From Sandaracinus sp. (lineage in GTDB: Bacteria > Myxococcota_A > Polyangia > Polyangiales > Houyiibacteriaceae), in contig PABA01000008.1 in assembly GCA_002699025.1 (NCBI GenBank), forward strand, positions 1 to 64,000: DNA of 64,000 nt. Direction: 5' to 3'. Under the pieces are notes generated by a model. That model ran no database searches. It was given only the letters and a program-made list of their open reading frames with translations, and had not been told where the DNA came from. The translations under genes and the position numbers were made by a program. Every line of letters starts with the position of its first letter. Within the stretch, counting starts at the first letter, position 1. Below are positions 36,944-49,569 of this stretch, piece by piece.

Positions 36944-38320
<1,377 letters not shown>

Positions 38321-38557: not shown

Positions 38558-39097
38558 ATGGCACCCCGCAGCACCCGCCTCGCAGGCTTCACCCTCCTCG
38601 AGCTCATGATCGTCGTCGCGATCGTGGGCATCCTCTCGGCCATCGCGATCCCCACCTTCAGTCAGTACGTGCACCGCGCGCGCACCTCGGAGGCCACGAC
38701 CTTCCTCGGCGAGATCCGGCAGCGCCAGGAGGCCTACCGCGCCGAGTTCGGGCAGTACTGCGACGCCAGCGGCGGAAACCTCGGCAACTTCAACCCCACG
38801 AATCCTCCCCGTGACCAGCTGTCTGGGTGGCAGAACCAGCCGGGCTGGCAGCAGCTCGGAGCCCGTCCGGACGGCGCCGTGCGCTTCCAGTACTCCGCCG
38901 TGGCGGGCCTGCCCAACACCGCCGTTCCGGGCGGCATTGGCGAGTGCGGCGATCCCTCCTCCGGTGTCCTCAACACGGAATTCTGGCACGTGGCGCAGGC
39001 AGTGGGGGACCTGGATGCCGACGGGAACCAAGTCTGCTTCGACGTGACCTCCCACCGCCCACGGGTCTGGGTGAGTCGCTCGTCCGGCTGGGAGTGA
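38558..39097 (+). CDS. Type IV pilin
   Basis: A 179-residue prepilin: leader MAPRSTRLAG, then the cleavage site [13 protein letters not shown] with Glu5 of the mature form, and the long hydrophobic alpha-1 helix (VGILSAIAIPTFSQYV). The globular part has four Cys and near the end GDLDADG. Type IV pilins assemble into surface fibres for motility and attachment. The sigma-54 promoter at 38373 and the upstream PilR-like regulator fit a PilA role. GGAG lies before the ATG. The frame is open upstream but only the ATG at 38558 gives a normal leader. Confidence 0.88.
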   Translation: MAPRSTRLAGFTLLELMIVVAIVGILSAIAIPTFSQYVHRARTSEATTFLGEIRQRQEAYRAEFGQYCDASGGNLGNFNPTNPPRDQLSGWQNQPGWQQLGARPDGAVRFQYSAVAGLPNTAVPGGIGECGDPSSGVLNTEFWHVAQAVGDLDADGNQVCFDVTSHRPRVWVSRSSGWE

Positions 39098-39181: not shown

Positions 39182-39197
39182 TGGCACGAGTCCTGCT
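39182..39197 (+). promoter_or_regulatory. Sigma-54 promoter of the second pilin gene
   Basis: TGGCACGAGTCCTGCT, with a perfect TGGCACG -24 box and a CTGCT -12 box in the right spacing. It lies 62 bases before the second pilin ATG. Confidence 0.8.
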
Positions 39198-39258: not shown

Positions 39259-39885
39259 ATGAATCTCCGCAAGAACAAGGAAGGCTTCACGCTCATCGAG
39301 TTGATGATCGTCGTCGCCATCATCGGCATCCTCGCTGCCATCGCGATCCCGGCCTTCATCAACTACATCAAGCGCTCCAAGACGTCCGAGGCCCCGGATA
39401 ACCTCAAGGCGCTCTTCACCGGTGCCAGCGCGCTCTACGTCCGCGGTCGGACGGAACAGATGCTCATCGCCCGCGGCGTGGCCTCGGCCAACTCGACCCG
39501 CTGCCACGTCGCCGCCATGGTCACGACCGCGGGCTTCGGTGGCGCCCCCGCAACGCCCATGGACCAGAAGTACACCATCGCCTGGCCGCCCGACCCGTCC
39601 ATGGACGCGGTCGCCGACAGCTTCACGGGTCTCTCCTGGCAGGCCTCGGACCCCCTCTACTACATCTACGAGGTCGACACGGCCGGCAACGGCGCCACCA
39701 TGGTCAGCACCGGCATCAACTGCGGTGACTCCACGATGGTCGGGGAGGCTCTCTACACCTTCCGCGCGCTCGGTGACCTGGACGGGGACGGCGCGCTCAG
39801 CACCTTCGAGCTTGCCGTCGGTGTCGACGAGGGGACCGCGCTCTATCGGAACGCCGAGATCTTCACGTCGAACGAGCTCGAGTAA
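39259..39885 (+). CDS. Type IV pilin (major pilin candidate)
   Basis: A 208-residue prepilin with short leader MNLRKNKEG and cleavage site [16 protein letters not shown], Glu5 present. A basic segment ([12 protein letters not shown]) follows the helix. The globular domain has two Cys and a C-terminal loop [15 protein letters not shown] that resembles an EF-hand calcium loop. The leader peptide, the strong sigma-54 promoter and the purine-rich AGAAGGA before the ATG point to high expression, so this is the better candidate for the main PilA. A good terminator follows the gene. Confidence 0.9.
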
Positions 39886-39908: not shown

Positions 39909-39942
39909 GCGGGGGCCGTCGGACGACGGTCCCCGCTTCTTC
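39909..39942 (+). terminator. Intrinsic terminator after the second pilin
   Basis: GCGGGGGCCGTCG and CGACGGTCCCCGC form a 13-bp GC-rich stem (one G-T pair), followed by TTCTTCGTT. It separates the pilin from the downstream large gene. Confidence 0.6.
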
Positions 39943-39977: not shown

Positions 39978-42900
39978 GTGGTCCGCCAAGCCTCTCCCTT
40001 CCTCGCGCTCTTCCTCTCGGGCCTGGCCGCCCTGATCTACCAGACGGCCTGGGGGCGGATGCTGCACCGGGTCTTCGGGGTCAGCGACCTGGCCATCGCC
40101 ACGGTGCTGGCGACCTTCTTCCTCGGCCTCGGCCTCGGCTCGGCGCTCGGTGGCCGGTGGGGCAGCCGCAACGAGCGACCTGCGCGGCTCTACGCGGCGC
40201 TCGAGATCGCGATCGGCGCCTGGGCGCTCCTGTCGATCCTCCTCATCCCGAACGTGCATGGGCTCTACGCGTCGTTCGGCAGCGACCAGAGCTTCACCGT
40301 GCTCACGGCGCTTCGCTTCACGCTGGCGCTTCTCATCCTGCTGCCCCCCACCCTCCTCATGGGGGCGACGCTGCCCGTGCTCATCGCGGCGGTCTCACGC
40401 AGGGGCATCGACTGGGGGGGGCGCGCGACCGGGCTCTACGCCACCAACACCCTGGGGGCCGTCGCCGGCGCCGGGCTCACGGGGCTGCTCCTCGTGCCGC
40501 GTTTCGGCGCGCGGATGAGCATCGTCCTCGCCGCCGTAGCGAGCTTCGGCGCCGCCGCGGTCGTCTTCGCGGCCATGCGAGCGCTCGATCAGGGCGGCGA
40601 AGCGCCGGGGACCACCGACGCCGAGGGGGGCGAGGCCCCCGGATCGGCGCCGGTCGTGGAGGGGCCGGAGAACAGCGAGTCCCCCGCGACGGTCGACGAG
40701 GGCAGGCCCAGCGCGCTCCCGCTCGCGACCGGGCTGGCCTTCATCGCCGGGCTCGCCAGCCTCGCCTCGGAGGTCCTCTGGACGCGCGTGCTCCGCATGG
40801 TGGTGCAGGGCACGACGCAGGCGTTCGCCGCGATGCTCGTCAACTTCCTCCTCGGCATCGCCCTCGGGAGCCTCCTCGCCGACCGCTTGGTCCGCCGGGG
40901 CGGCGACCCCAGGCGTCTCTTCGGCATCACCCAGCTCCTGCTCCTGCTGCTCACGGGCGTGGCGATGATGGTCGCCCCCCAGCTGCCGCGCCTCTTGGCC
41001 ATGGCCCAGGACGGCGCCAGCCTGGTCCCGCACGAGGCGGGCCCGATTCTCCTCCTCGCGGCCTTGCTCCTCTTTCCGCTCGCCCTCGTGCTCGGGACCT
41101 CGGTCCCCCTCGCCTGGCGCATCGCTGGCGGAGACGCGGCTCAGGCCGCCCACCACTCGGGGCGCGTCCTCGCCGCCAACACCCTCGGCGGCCTGCTCGG
41201 CTCGCTGGCCGCGGGCTTCTTCTTGGTGCCGAACATCGGCATCGAGGCCTCGGTGCTGGTCGTCGCGCTCGTCCACGGCCTCGCATCCATGATCGCCCTC
41301 GCCTCCAGCACGCGGGAGTCGCGGACGCGCCTCGTCGGCATCCTGGTCCCAGCGCTCGCCCTCGGGGGGCTCCTGAGCCTCCAGCCCCGGCTCCACGTGG
41401 CGTATCTCGTCGAGGCCCGGCGCGACATCGCGCGCGCCGTCATCGAAGGGCCGGGAGATGAGTGGCGCCAGGCCCTGGTCTTCCTCGAGGAGGGACGGAA
41501 CACGACGGTGACCGTCTCGCAACGCAACCCGGGGAGCCTCCAACTCTTCAACGATGGCCGCCCGGAGTCGGGGTTCTCGGCCGGAGAGCCGGGCTTCGGA
41601 GCCGAGCTCGTCCTGCTGGGCTCGCTGCCGAACGTCTTCGTGCCAGAGCGACGGAGCGCGCTGGTGGTCGGGCTCGGCGGCGGTCACTCGACCTCGGTAC
41701 TCGCGGAGCCGGGTTGGGAATCCGTCGAGGTGGTCGAGCTCGAGGAAGCCGTCGTCCACGCCGCGCGCTTCATGCACGAGTCCTTCGACGAGCCCTTCCC
41801 CTTGGATCGGCCGGAGGTCAGCTTGACCGTCGACGACGCGCGCGCGCAGCTGGTGCTCTCCCCGCCGGAGAGCCTCGACGCCGTCGTGAGCCAGCCGTCG
41901 CACCCCTGGCTCGCCGGGTCGAGCGCGCTCTACACGGAGGAGTTCTTCCGGGAGGTGCAGCGCGCCCTGCGCCACGAGGGGGTCTTTTCGCTCTGGGTGA
42001 ACCGCTTCCGCATCGAAGAGCGACATCTCCGCTCCGTGGTCGGTACGCTCCTCGCGGTCTTCGAGCACGTGCAGGCTTTCGTCGTCGAGTACTCGAGCTT
42101 CGTCCTCGTCGCGAGCGACGCGCCCCTGACCACGAGCGCCGAGCGCTTCCGCGAGCTGGGGGGCGAAGGCACCTATTTCGACGCGATCGGCATGGATCGG
42201 ATGGGCTTCGTGGGCGCGCTCGAGCTCGACACCGCGGGCGCGCGGGCTTGGACGGAGGGGGCCGCTCGCATCGTGGACGATCGCCCCACCCTGGAGTTCG
42301 AGCTCGCCCAGCTCCCGGAGCAGCGCGACCTCTCGACCTCGGATCTCGACCAAGCCCTTCTCGCGATTCCCTGGGCTTCGAGGGAGACGCTCGCGGGGCT
42401 GGGGGTCGCACCGTTGGAGGGTGCCCTGGCGCGCGTCGACGGGGTACGCGACCGGCGCGCCGCCCTCGATCGACTCGAACGCTCGCTCCCGGCCCTCCAG
42501 GTCGAGGCTCCAGTGGAGCGCGCCTTGGTGGGTGCCGCGATCGCCGAAGCCCGCGGGGACTTCGCGCGCGCTCTCGACCTCTACGACGAGGCCATGGCGA
42601 GCCCGGAGGCGGTGCGCCGGGCCGACGCGCTGCGCGACGCGGAGCGGCTCCACGCCGGACTCCTCCGCCGCTGGCGTCGTGCCGGACGGGCTGCCCCTTC
42701 GGACCCCGCGCCCTACGTACTCGCCGCACTCGCCGAGGGGGACCGCGAGGCGGCGGTAGAGCTCTTGGCCGCGCACCCTGATTGGGCCTCTCCCTTGCGC
42801 GCCTTCGCGGAGGCCTGGGCGACCGCGGACTGCGCCGCGGCCCTCGCGCACGTCGCCTCGCTGCGCGACGACCGGTCCCTCGCGGTCGCGGCGCGGTGCG

Positions 42901-43274
42901 CCTCCGAGCTCGGGCGCTTCGACGCGGCCCGGGCGCTGCTCGAGCGTGCCGGCCGTGCCCGGCGCCTCGCGTCCCATCGCTGGACGACCCGAGCGCTGCC
43001 GATGCTGGAGACCAATACCGGGCTCGCGGTGCGATACCTGATGCGCGCCCTCGCCGCCAACGCGGGTCACGCCAAGGCCGCCGAGGAGCTGGCCAAGGCG
43101 CTCCACGCCCACGGCGAGCGTGACCGGGCCGCCACCGTCCTGGCGGAGGCCATCGAGCAGAACGCCGGCCTCCCCACGGCGACTCATCTCTACGGCATCG
43201 CCGAGCGTCTGGGCGTGCACCGAGCCGTCCGGCGCCCCGCGGACGCTCACGAGCCGCTGAGGGTCCAGCCATGA
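39978..43274 (+). CDS. Membrane aminopropyltransferase-like protein with TPR C-terminus
   Basis: A 1098-residue protein in three parts. Residues 1-480 form a polytopic, MFS-like membrane domain (FLSGLAALIYQTAWGRMLHRVFG). Residues about 555-720 form a Rossmann domain of the spermidine synthase family (LVVGLGGGHSTSVL, VVELEEAVVHAARFM, TVDDARAQL). Residues about 800-1098 are TPR-like helices. At the usual catalytic Asp site the sequence is VVSQPSHPWLAGSSALYT (about 636-653), so polyamine synthesis is unlikely. The same SxPSxPW pattern is known from membrane 'fused MFS/spermidine synthase' proteins of unknown role. It starts a four-gene overlapping or abutting run with TPR, prepilin and DUF2723 genes. 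Confidence 0.75.
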   Translation: MVRQASPFLALFLSGLAALIYQTAWGRMLHRVFGVSDLAIATVLATFFLGLGLGSALGGRWGSRNERPARLYAALEIAIGAWALLSILLIPNVHGLYASFGSDQSFTVLTALRFTLALLILLPPTLLMGATLPVLIAAVSRRGIDWGGRATGLYATNTLGAVAGAGLTGLLLVPRFGARMSIVLAAVASFGAAAVVFAAMRALDQGGEAPGTTDAEGGEAPGSAPVVEGPENSESPATVDEGRPSALPLATGLAFIAGLASLASEVLWTRVLRMVVQGTTQAFAAMLVNFLLGIALGSLLADRLVRRGGDPRRLFGITQLLLLLLTGVAMMVAPQLPRLLAMAQDGASLVPHEAGPILLLAALLLFPLALVLGTSVPLAWRIAGGDAAQAAHHSGRVLAANTLGGLLGSLAAGFFLVPNIGIEASVLVVALVHGLASMIALASSTRESRTRLVGILVPALALGGLLSLQPRLHVAYLVEARRDIARAVIEGPGDEWRQALVFLEEGRNTTVTVSQRNPGSLQLFNDGRPESGFSAGEPGFGAELVLLGSLPNVFVPERRSALVVGLGGGHSTSVLAEPGWESVEVVELEEAVVHAARFMHESFDEPFPLDRPEVSLTVDDARAQLVLSPPESLDAVVSQPSHPWLAGSSALYTEEFFREVQRALRHEGVFSLWVNRFRIEERHLRSVVGTLLAVFEHVQAFVVEYSSFVLVASDAPLTTSAERFRELGGEGTYFDAIGMDRMGFVGALELDTAGARAWTEGAARIVDDRPTLEFELAQLPEQRDLSTSDLDQALLAIPWASRETLAGLGVAPLEGALARVDGVRDRRAALDRLERSLPALQVEAPVERALVGAAIAEARGDFARALDLYDEAMASPEAVRRADALRDAERLHAGLLRRWRRAGRAAPSDPAPYVLAALAEGDREAAVELLAAHPDWASPLRAFAEAWATADCAAALAHVASLRDDRSLAVAARCASELGRFDAARALLERAGRARRLASHRWTTRALPMLETNTGLAVRYLMRALAANAGHAKAAEELAKALHAHGERDRAATVLAEAIEQNAGLPTATHLYGIAERLGVHRAVRRPADAHEPLRVQP

Positions 43275-44128
43275 GCCGCGTCCCTTGGGCGGGCCTACTG
43301 CTCCTCCCCCTGCTCGCCGGGGCGACGCTGCCGCTCCGCGCCGAGAGCATGCACCACTACCTGGAGCATCAGACCTACGAAGACGTCTACTATCTCCCCT
43401 CCCCGGTCTGGCTCGAGCACCTCTCCCTCGGTCACCAGGAGGCGCTGGCGGACCTCATCTGGCTGAAGGCGCTGGTCTACATCGGGGACGAGTTCCTCCA
43501 CGAGGGCGACGTCGGGAACGTCTTCCGCTACGCGGACGCGATCCTCCACCTCGACCCCGACTTCCGTCGCGCCTACGCCTGGGTGGGGACGATGGGGCTC
43601 TATCGGCCCACGGGAGCCAGCCTCGAGGACGGGCTGCGCACGGTCGAGTTCCTCCGGGCCGGGGTCGAGCGCTTCCCCGACGACGGGGAGCTCGCCTGGG
43701 ACCTCGCCGCCACGCTCTCCTACGAGCTCCCCGCTCTGACGGAGGACCCGGCTGAGCGGGAGCGCTTCCGGGCGCTGGGCGCCGACCACATGCAGACGGC
43801 CGCCCGTTTGGGGGCCGGGCCCGATTGGCTCGCGCTCACCAACGCCACCCAGCTCTCCGAGCTCGGGCGCACGGAACAGGCCGCAGCCCACCTGGAGGAG
43901 ATGTACATGCTCGTCGACGACGAGGAGGTCCGCGCCCAGATCTCCGAGCGCCTCCATCAGCTGCGCGGCCACGTGCGCGCCCAGGCCCTCGAGCGGGCGG
44001 TTCGGGGGGCGCACGAATCCTACGAGGCGGACTACCCCTGGGTGCCCTTCGAGTTCTACCTGCTCCTCGGAGACCGGCCTGTCGTCGATGCGACGGAGCT
44101 GCGCGAGCGGCGCTGGCTCTCCGAGTAG
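43271..44128 (+). CDS. Exported TPR protein, pilin-locus associated
   Basis: A 285-residue protein with a signal peptide (LLLLPLLAGATLPLRAES) and a TPR-like body. A characteristic stretch YLPSPVWLEHLSLGHQEA, then LADLIWLKALVYIGDE, and YADAILHLDPDFRRAY recurs in proteins found beside pilin and membrane spermidine-synthase-like genes of deltaproteobacteria. It overlaps the upstream gene by four bases (ATGA) and touches the next prepilin gene. It probably works in the periplasm with these partners; no enzyme motif is seen. Confidence 0.6.
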   Translation: MSRVPWAGLLLLPLLAGATLPLRAESMHHYLEHQTYEDVYYLPSPVWLEHLSLGHQEALADLIWLKALVYIGDEFLHEGDVGNVFRYADAILHLDPDFRRAYAWVGTMGLYRPTGASLEDGLRTVEFLRAGVERFPDDGELAWDLAATLSYELPALTEDPAERERFRALGADHMQTAARLGAGPDWLALTNATQLSELGRTEQAAAHLEEMYMLVDDEEVRAQISERLHQLRGHVRAQALERAVRGAHESYEADYPWVPFEFYLLLGDRPVVDATELRERRWLSE

Positions 44129-44740
44129 GTGGCGGTGTTTGCCCGGCTCGGGTCGACGGAACAAGATGCGGGCGTGCTCCGAACAACCGGCCGCGCGCGC
44201 CGCCGCGTGCCTCGCCGTGGCGGCCTGACCCTCATCGAGACGTCGCTGCTCGTGAGCATCGTGGGGATCGTGCTCGCCGTCTCCGTGCCGACCTTCTGGC
44301 GGGAGCTGCGCACGAGCAAGGTCGACGAAGCCAGCGAGCTGCTCGAGGAGCTCGCAGCGCGGGTCGACGCCTACTACGTCGCCGATCACGGTGGCCAGAC
44401 CGCCTGCCTTCCGTCGGCCGCGGGCCCGGCCCCAGCGGAGACCCACGCCGCGGCTACGGAAGTCGACTTCGTCGACGACGAGCTCGTTCCCGGTCAGGCG
44501 ACCTGGGCCGCGTTGGGCTTCGACCCCGGGCGGCCTGTCCGCTATCGATACGAGTTCGTCCCGTACCGCGACGGATGTGGCGTGCGCCCTCCGGAGGGCG
44601 AGACCCTCTATACGCTGCGCAGCACGGGCGACCTCGACGAGGACGGGCGCCTTTCGACCTTCGAGCGCTCGGCGACGCTGGGTCCGGATGGAGCTCCCCG
44701 CCCGACCGGAGTCCTGCGCGTTCGAGACCGGGTGGAATGA
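44129..44740 (+). CDS. Prepilin-like protein (minor pilin or pseudopilin)
   Basis: A 203-residue protein with an unusually long leader (about 32 residues if the GTG at 44129 is used; a GTG at 44174 would shorten it), cleavage site GG|LTLIETSLLVSIVGIVLA with Leu instead of Phe at +1 and Glu5 kept. The globular domain has two Cys and ends with STGDLDEDGRLSTFERS, the same acidic loop as in the second pilin. It abuts the TPR gene and overlaps the DUF2723 gene (ATGA). A role as a minor pilin or a specialised fibre subunit is likely. Confidence 0.75.
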   Translation: MAVFARLGSTEQDAGVLRTTGRARRRVPRRGGLTLIETSLLVSIVGIVLAVSVPTFWRELRTSKVDEASELLEELAARVDAYYVADHGGQTACLPSAAGPAPAETHAAATEVDFVDDELVPGQATWAALGFDPGRPVRYRYEFVPYRDGCGVRPPEGETLYTLRSTGDLDEDGRLSTFERSATLGPDGAPRPTGVLRVRDRVE

Positions 44741-46710
44741 GCTCCCGGCCAGTCCTCCGGGAGCTCGTCCGCCTCGGGCTTCCACTCTCGCATCCAGGCC
44801 CCGCCTGGCTGGTCGCGGGGCTCGCTCTCGGGGTCTACCTGATGACGATGGCCCGCGGGCTGACCTTCTATGACAGCCCCGAGCTCGCTCTCGTCGCGCG
44901 AGAGCTGGGGGTGGGCCATCCGATCGGCCAGCCGGTGCACACCCTGCTCGGCGCGGCCTTCTCGCGCTTGCCGGGGCTGAGCCCGGTAACGGGTCTGACC
45001 GCGATGAGCGCCCTGTTCGGGGCGCTCTCGGCGCTTCCGATGTGGTCGCTCTCCGAGCGCCTCGTCCCGCCGGGGGCCTGGCGCGGGGCACGGGTCATCC
45101 GGGGCGCTGCCGTGCTTGGAGTCCTCCTCTCCGCGGTCGCCTGGGAGCCTGCGACACGCGTCGAGGTCTACACGCTGGGGAGCTTCCTCGCCTGTTGGTC
45201 CGTGGCGTTCGCCGGTGATGTCGCCGAGCGGCTCGCCGCCGGCGAGCGAGCGATACCCCGCGTCGTCGGCCTGGGCGTGGCCCTCGGCGCCGCGGCGGCG
45301 ACGCACGCCATCCTCGCCGCTGGAGCGGGGCTCGCGTGCGTGCCGCTTCTCTGGAACGGCGACGGATGGCGTCGCCGCGCGCTCCGCGCCGTCTCGGTCA
45401 CGGGCGGGGGGCTCCTAGGCCTGACGACCTACGTCTACGTGCCCCTCGCCTCGCGCGATCCCCACCGCTTCGCGTGGGGCGGCGTGCACGACATGGCGAG
45501 CTTCCGTGCCTACCTGAGCGGGGCCGACTACGCCCACAACCAAGGCATCGAGGGGAGCGGTTGGCTGGCACACCTCGGAGACATCGTCGGCTGGTGGGCG
45601 TCGCATGGCGCGCTGCCGGTCGCCCTCGTCGGCGCGGGGGCCTGGTTCGGGCTCGGTCGCCGGACCAGGGGGCTCCGGTGGGCGTTCCTGCCGGTGCCCT
45701 TCGTCCACGTGGGATTCGTCGCCGCAAACGTGGTCTTCCACCCGGACGTCCCGGACTACCGGGGCTACTACCTCCCGACGCTCGTTCTGGCTGGCGCCCG
45801 CGTCGCCGCGCTCGCGGCCAAGCTCGCCCTCGAGGGCGGCCGACACCGAGCGTATGGCGTCGCCCTGGGCATCGTCCCGCTTCTCGCGATCCTCGTCTCG
45901 CCCGCGCACCTCGGGGGGCCTCGAACGGGCGCTCCTTCTCTCGCCGAGCGGATGGCCCGGGGCGCGCTCCGAGAAGCTCCCCGCAACGGCATCCTGGTGG
46001 CGGAGGCGGATCACTGGGTCGCCCCGCTCCTCTACGTGCAAGAGGTCGACGGGGTGCGGCCGGACGTCGTGCTCGTCCCCTGGGGTCTCGCCTCCTCGTC
46101 GTGGTACTGGGCTCACCTCAGAGCCCGCCACCCCTCTTTGCGTGACTTCGCGCTGCGCGGTCCCGGCGGACGCGCCGGCCGGATCGGCCGACTCCTCGAA
46201 GCACACCCAGAGCGCGCCGTGCAGCTCGAATCCTGGGACATGGCGATGCGCCTCGGGCGCCGCCCATGTGGTGTCGGTTGGCTGCTCCACGCCGGTCCGG
46301 GCTGTGCTCCGCCCGACCCCGGCGAGGCGAGCGCCGCCGTGAGCGCGGGGGGGCCCTACCAGGGTGAGAGCCTCGAGGTGGCGGCGGCCCTGGGCGCGGC
46401 GCGGGGTGAGGCGGCGTGGCGTCTGGGCCAGGGTCGAGGCGCGGCCGAGGCGTGGGTCGCCGGCCTGCCGGCGTCAGGCGTGGGTCCCCGCCTGCCCGAG
46501 GGGCTTCCGGAACGCACGCGACCCCTCGGTGGCCCGCTGCCACCCTGGACGCGCCACCGACCCATTCATGACCCGGCCCGAAACCTCGCGCTCACGGGGC
46601 TCCTGCTCCGGGAGCTCGGGCGCCCGCGGGAGGCTCTCGCCTTCGTTGATGCGGCGCGCTCCTCCGGTCTGCCCGGCGCCGAACAGGCTCGCGCTCTCGT
46701 ACAACGATGA
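44737..46710 (+). CDS. DUF2723 membrane protein, glycosyltransferase-like
   Basis: A 657-residue polytopic membrane protein with about ten helices in the first 420 residues. The family motif near the first loop is complete: GLTFYDSPEL (41-50) and HPIGQPVHT (61-69), as in DUF2723, a GT-C-like family related to protein O-mannosyltransferases. The C-terminal third is soluble with TPR-like ends (EALAFVDAARSSG). It closes the pilin-associated run by an ATGA overlap, so glycosylation of pilins or surface proteins is a fair hypothesis. Confidence 0.75.
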   Translation: MSSRPVLRELVRLGLPLSHPGPAWLVAGLALGVYLMTMARGLTFYDSPELALVARELGVGHPIGQPVHTLLGAAFSRLPGLSPVTGLTAMSALFGALSALPMWSLSERLVPPGAWRGARVIRGAAVLGVLLSAVAWEPATRVEVYTLGSFLACWSVAFAGDVAERLAAGERAIPRVVGLGVALGAAAATHAILAAGAGLACVPLLWNGDGWRRRALRAVSVTGGGLLGLTTYVYVPLASRDPHRFAWGGVHDMASFRAYLSGADYAHNQGIEGSGWLAHLGDIVGWWASHGALPVALVGAGAWFGLGRRTRGLRWAFLPVPFVHVGFVAANVVFHPDVPDYRGYYLPTLVLAGARVAALAAKLALEGGRHRAYGVALGIVPLLAILVSPAHLGGPRTGAPSLAERMARGALREAPRNGILVAEADHWVAPLLYVQEVDGVRPDVVLVPWGLASSSWYWAHLRARHPSLRDFALRGPGGRAGRIGRLLEAHPERAVQLESWDMAMRLGRRPCGVGWLLHAGPGCAPPDPGEASAAVSAGGPYQGESLEVAAALGAARGEAAWRLGQGRGAAEAWVAGLPASGVGPRLPEGLPERTRPLGGPLPPWTRHRPIHDPARNLALTGLLLRELGRPREALAFVDAARSSGLPGAEQARALVQR

Positions 46711-46870: not shown

Positions 46871-49501
<2,631 letters not shown>

Positions 49502-49539
49502 CGCGATCCTCGAATCCGGAGCGGGATTGAAAACGCGGC

Positions 49540-49569
49540 ACTGTACCCAGCCTGCACAAAGCAGGTCAA
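49540..49569 (-). promoter_or_regulatory. Sigma-70-type promoter TTGACC-N18-TACAGT
   Basis: On the minus strand: TTGACC (49564-49569), 18 bases, TACAGT (49540-49545). The TTG start of the kinase is 38 bases after the -10 box, with GAGGAT as ribosome site, so this message has a normal short leader. Confidence 0.65.

Follow-up and report, generated by a model that had tools for sequence, protein, structure and literature searches.

The window (the whole stretch of 64,000 nucleotides that was analyzed) carries a type IV pilin operon in which the gene for an MFS / spermidine-synthase-fold / TPR fusion protein lies between the second prepilin gene and a gene for a small TPR/FIMAH-like protein (Table 1). 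The sigma-54-like element preceding prepilin 2 is the best -24/-12 match in the window, with one mismatch, and such matches are not more numerous in the window than expected by chance. The strong GC-rich hairpin that separates prepilin 2 from the fusion gene is possibly an attenuator, which would keep expression of the genes that follow it below that of the pilin. All three prepilins have a C-terminal GDLDxDG (39005-39025, 39772-39792 and 44627-44647), as do the cassette pilins of relatives, and this motif resembles the calcium-binding DxDxDG loop. Beside the operon, on the minus strand (46871-49550), is a gene for a large protein that, by eye, resembles a Ser/Thr protein kinase with repeated PEGA-like segments.

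Table 1. Pilin operon and fusion gene features, in window coordinates.
Feature	Coordinates	Strand	Basis or remark
PilR-like sigma-54 response regulator, first gene of the cassette	36944-38320	+	Pfam/NCBIfam; kept in relatives' cassettes
Type IV prepilin 1	38558-39097	+	
Sigma-54-like -24/-12 site TGGCACGAGTCCTGCT	39182-39197	+	62 bases upstream of prepilin 2
Type IV prepilin 2 (PilA-like)	39259-39885	+	
GC-rich hairpin	39910-39937	+	z -2.15
MFS / spermidine-synthase-fold / TPR fusion gene	39978-43274	+	1098 aa, GTG start
Membrane region, residues 1-470: 12-helix MFS (1-448) and 13th helix	39978-41387	+	AlphaFold2, MFS structures, loop charge
TM13, residues 452-470, predicted to take the chain into the periplasm	41331-41387	+	Model, hydrophobicity in 54 homologs
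Spermidine-synthase-fold domain, residues 483-745	41424-42212	+	Domain model, fold search, profile match
Motif I LVVGLGGGHSTS, residues 562-573	41661-41696	+	G568 in place of GGG[D/E]G acid
VVELEE, residues 585-590	41730-41747	+	
SQPSHPWLAGSSALYT, residues 638-653	41889-41936	+	Q639 and H642 in place of D-x-x-D aspartates
C-terminal helical TPR-like repeats, residues about 802-1078	42381-43211	+	Model, Pfam
Small TPR/FIMAH-like protein	43271-44128	+	Overlaps fusion gene by 4 bases
Atypical prepilin 3 (GLTLIE)	44129-44740	+	
TMEM260-like (PF11028) membrane glycosyltransferase, last gene of the operon	44737-46710	+	Pfam

The fusion protein passes the cut-off of the NCBIfam model for fused MFS/spermidine synthases (NF037959, MFS_SpdSyn; 110.1 bits, cut-off 40). 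Pfam models recognize Spermine_synth at residues 547-703 (34.9 bits, cut-off 22.9), MFS_1 across residues 8-339 at a score under the cut-off, and, weakly, TPR at residues 1016-1064. In the full-length AlphaFold2 model (mean pLDDT 92, pTM 0.90), residues 1-448 match MFS transporter structures with Z scores of up to 32.8, and the MFS fold stops at residue 448. Because a fold search with this model reached the MFS part only, residues 480-780 were modeled and searched alone (pLDDT 90, pTM 0.91). The resulting domain model matches the Thermus thermophilus aminopropyltransferase 1uir_B with a Z score of 27.6 across 275 residues, and the domain profile also matches 1uir (E 5e-25). Nearly all fold matches are aminopropyltransferases, with Z scores of 23-27.6, and METTL13 appears at 17.0. 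This confident model indicates a true spermidine-synthase fold, so that the overlay on spermidine synthase proposed in the first-pass annotation has returned the same fold. The domain order read there from the sequence, membrane helices followed by the synthase-like domain and then TPR repeats, is also correct.

The same annotation stated that the Rossmann core is kept and that the catalytic aspartate is lost. Both core motifs are in place, and the loss at D-x-x-D is borne out by Q639 and H642, but a third lost acid, at G568, had been overlooked. In an alignment with solved aminopropyltransferases, SQPSHPW falls exactly on D-x-[ST]-D-P, with S-Q-P-S-H-P-W opposite S-D-C-T-D-P-I of Escherichia coli SpeE, while GGG[D/E]G has become GLGGG and D-x-x-D has become Q-P-S-H. 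All three acids for decarboxylated-SAM/amine chemistry are therefore absent from the fusion protein, and binding of decarboxylated SAM requires the GGG[D/E]G acid (PMC10349129). The GxG loop, E587 and D620 of the cofactor core typical of spermidine synthases are retained. In those enzymes, the residues at the positions of E587 and D620 hold ribose and adenine. Of the earlier suggestion that the domain binds SAM or decarboxylated SAM, the first part is plausible on sequence grounds because the cofactor core is invariant.

Alignment of the SQPSHPW site among relatives, which had also been proposed, found it unchanged in 18 of 18 close homologs collected by a whole-protein search that made no use of the motif, and this invariance rules out a degenerate or decaying domain. 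A single-sequence scan of a collection of genomes from 84,980 species gave no relatives, but a scan of the same collection with an alignment succeeded, finding 260. The 79 loci that were retained come from Myxococcota, Gammaproteobacteria, Planctomycetota, Verrucomicrobia and others. All 82 SQPSHP sequences have G, A or S at position 568. In this set the invariance of SQPSHPW itself is not independent because the set was gathered in part with the pattern [VI]SQPSHPW; only the 18 close homologs are free of this bias. Independent of such gathering is the invariance of G527, E530, G565, G567, E587, E589, D620 and R622, which accompany SQPSHPW throughout the cross-phylum subfamily. In an alignment of 54 homologs the invariant columns, S638 to W644 among them, cluster in the spermidine-synthase-fold domain, and in the A2 set residues 506-653 hold 22 of the 26 invariant columns. 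The wider family within the same genomes has SEPSNPW or other variants at this site, and SQPSHPW is, as judged from these alignments, the mark of a subfamily that spans phyla. Over several phyla, the motif that took the place of D-x-x-D shows the invariance of a functioning active site, a pattern that argues for retained binding and changed chemistry.

Thirteen membrane helices are predicted in the full model, the last of them ending at about residue 470. TM13 is strongly hydrophobic in all 54 aligned homologs and is preceded by a basic loop, and the mean number of K+R per loop in these homologs is 2.3-4.1 for predicted inner loops versus 0.3-1.6 for outer loops. Both the N- and C-termini of MFS proteins are cytoplasmic. 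Because the MFS unit would thus end in the cytoplasm and TM13 adds one crossing, the spermidine-synthase-fold and TPR domains are predicted to face the periplasm, a probable placement that comes from helix count and charge bias and was absent from the first-pass annotation. The same charge analysis also predicts an outward-facing catalytic domain for the intact 7-TM SpeE family, despite the presence of SpeD near a 7-TM SpeE gene in two genomes (G038 and G051). Hence, either the charge rule misleads or all of these proteins face outward, and an outward catalytic domain of intact 7-TM SpeE would, if true, be odd for a polyamine enzyme. Examples are the 7-TM spermidine synthases L070 / L214 (G000:C16), which have an intact site and a catalytic domain predicted to be outside the cytoplasm. 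Proteins of the SEPSNPW class (L052, L048) have about 1300-1560 residues, and their MFS half is matched repeatedly, which suggests more than two six-helix units.

Throughout the host's family and taxonomic order, within Myxococcota, the cassette keeps the arrangement PilR, prepilin, prepilin, TPR protein, atypical prepilin, and the small TPR/FIMAH-like protein, which serves as the marker gene of the cassette, occurs in 51 of 57 genomes. The conserved cassettes of relatives are mostly without the fusion gene. Of 16 informative genomes, 5 (that of the window, G004, G034, G043 and G048) have the fusion gene within the cassette or next to it, and locus L084 adds a further case. The linked layouts vary: the gene is part of the cassette, follows prepilin 1, is divergent from PilR, or is convergent with the TPR gene. 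With a 10 kb neighborhood, linkage in 5 of 16 would arise by chance with a probability of about 1e-9 if the genomes were independent, or about 2e-5 when counted as three lineages. The possibility that the linked copies form one clade was rejected, as the tree needs five changes and clustering is no stronger than with shuffled labels. The linkage of the fusion gene to pilins is recurrent, not universal. The tie to prepilins that the first-pass annotation offered as a clue to function is therefore real, but most family members do not share it.

Most family members are located away from pilins, where the gene is near trmB, a response regulator gene and valS (the latter recognized by eye), or near a multiheme cytochrome gene. 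The host has a second copy (G000:C211), whose synteny is conserved and whose neighbors include trmB and a multiheme cytochrome gene, and because of this setting the window copy is likely to be an extra paralog recruited to the pilin operon. At locus L051 (8521-10461), this second copy is near genes for a multiheme cytochrome c and an AAA-TPR protein. The TMEM260-like gene of the operon is also present in the G048 cassette and near the cassettes of G010 and G015.

Elsewhere in the host genome are a canonical SpeE with the motifs GGGDG and DGTDP and a 7-TM SpeE with GGGDG and DFPDP that scores above the PRK03612 cut-off. With these intact copies present and the three acids replaced, the claim that the domain does not make polyamines is very probably right. 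Public annotation names such proteins 'spermidine synthase', which the SQPSHPW subfamily almost certainly is not. No match to SpeD (PF02675) was found in 33 same-family genomes, the host included. This absence fits a loss of aminopropyl chemistry in the fusion protein, but its weight is reduced by the canonical SpeE of the host: a divergent SpeD could have escaped the search, or there may be another source of aminopropyl groups. A search for eukaryote-type SAM decarboxylase also gave no match, but its controls were silent too, making it uninformative.

Our preferred reading, held tentatively and with less than even confidence, is that the fusion protein is a membrane-anchored transferase of spermidine-synthase fold on the periplasmic side that has lost aminopropyl chemistry, most likely uses SAM, and is probably a methyltransferase. 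The 12-helix MFS unit and TM13 would hold the domain in the periplasm, the MFS unit may carry SAM across the inner membrane, and the TPR part would present the exported substrate. The donor would be intact SAM, acting by methyl transfer. The protein may act on exported proteins or their glycans, and at this locus the candidate substrates are the operon's own pilins or a sugar that the TMEM260-like glycosyltransferase would attach to them. Linkage to pilins thus supplies a concrete candidate substrate. Methylation of the prepilin N-terminus was considered as the main idea and rejected, as the host has a separate prepilin peptidase gene (PilD) with an A24_N_bact domain, and a Pfam scan of the fusion protein found no A24 peptidase with N-terminal methylase domain of the PilD type. 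Because PilD covers N-methylation, another modification is expected. SAM is not known to occur in the periplasm, which speaks against this reading, as do the outward prediction for intact 7-TM SpeE and the location of most family members away from pilins. If the domain is periplasmic, bacteria would be able to run SAM-dependent reactions beyond the cytoplasm, which would recast the view of pilin modification, and of the modification of other exported proteins, and would provide a bacterial parallel to fungal NHMT. It is doubtful that the whole scheme extends to a cross-phylum family with 13 helices, in which the MFS unit feeds SAM to an attached periplasmic transferase that methylates exported proteins or glycans, here pilins.

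Other functions can be envisaged for the same architecture. The loss of three active-site acids of the parent enzyme would also be expected of a conserved pseudo-enzyme that binds SAM, MTA or decarboxylated SAM as a sensor or scaffold, with the TPR region recruiting pilus parts and no group being transferred, and both the TPR region and the MFS part fit a scaffold or a transporter-sensor. However, the replacement motif is invariant over phyla, including Q639, H642 and W644, which are capable of chemistry, whereas the former catalytic loops of sensors usually drift, an argument that is suggestive and not proof. We therefore consider this explanation, raised as a non-catalytic sensor in the first-pass annotation, unlikely, and less likely than changed chemistry. 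Alternatively, the domain might be an aminopropyltransferase with a re-modeled active site that uses decarboxylated SAM as donor and a protein, lipid or polyamine as acceptor. The closest solved structures are all aminopropyltransferases, and the pocket region has gained an invariant acid, E530. Nevertheless, the GGG[D/E]G acid and both D-x-x-D aspartates are absent, neither the host nor 32 other same-family genomes gave a SpeD match, and the host has its intact SpeE copies, which together make this reading improbable. We regard as equally improbable a transporter whose cargo might be polyamines or metabolites derived from SAM, that carries a regulatory spermidine-synthase-like domain and whose pilin neighborhood is incidental. 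Although the MFS fold is clear and many members reside away from pilins, for example near sulfatase-like and TonB-receptor-like genes (identified by eye), invariance peaks in the spermidine-synthase-fold domain, and linkage to the pilin cassette recurs.

The subfamily is a variant of the known NF037959 family, whose members share with the window protein the arrangement of MFS helices followed by a spermidine synthase domain; other members in related genomes have SEPSNPW where the window protein has SQPSHPW. In the literature searched there is no experimental function for fused MFS/spermidine synthases, and within that scope the subfamily appears to be functionally uncharacterized. A paper on a corynebacterial envelope methyltransferase was considered and has no bearing on the fused family. 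The 7-TM aminopropyltransferases (NF002956 / PRK03612) correspond to TM7-13 and the synthase domain of the window protein (residues 252-704), which fails the PRK03612 cut-off (100.3 bits, cut-off 472). That family keeps GGGDG and D-x-x-D, whereas the window protein replaces both and has in addition a further 6-TM half and the TPR region. Canonical SpeE shares with the window protein the fold, the N-terminal beta domain, GxG, the ribose-binding acid and the D-[AG] adenine site, but the window protein differs in its three replaced substrate/catalytic acids, its membrane anchor and its TPR region. The C-terminal methyltransferase domain of METTL13 (5wcj), a protein that is not membrane-anchored, is a more distant relative of the window domain than the aminopropyltransferases are (profile match E 1.7e-4; fold Z as given above).

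The precedent for the preferred reading is an experimentally proven enzyme, NHMT (AN4663), the fungal 7-TM N-terminal histidine methyltransferase, which is located in the ER, methylates secreted LPMOs on their N-terminal histidine once the signal peptide has been cleaved off, and is separated from spermidine synthases by loss of the D/E of GxG(D/E)G (PMC10349129). By its published description, NHMT resembles the window protein in joining membrane helices to a SpdS-like domain from which the GxG(D/E)G acid is missing. NHMT is fungal, has seven membrane helices, is without TPR repeats and acts on LPMOs, whereas the window protein has 13 predicted helices and a TPR region.
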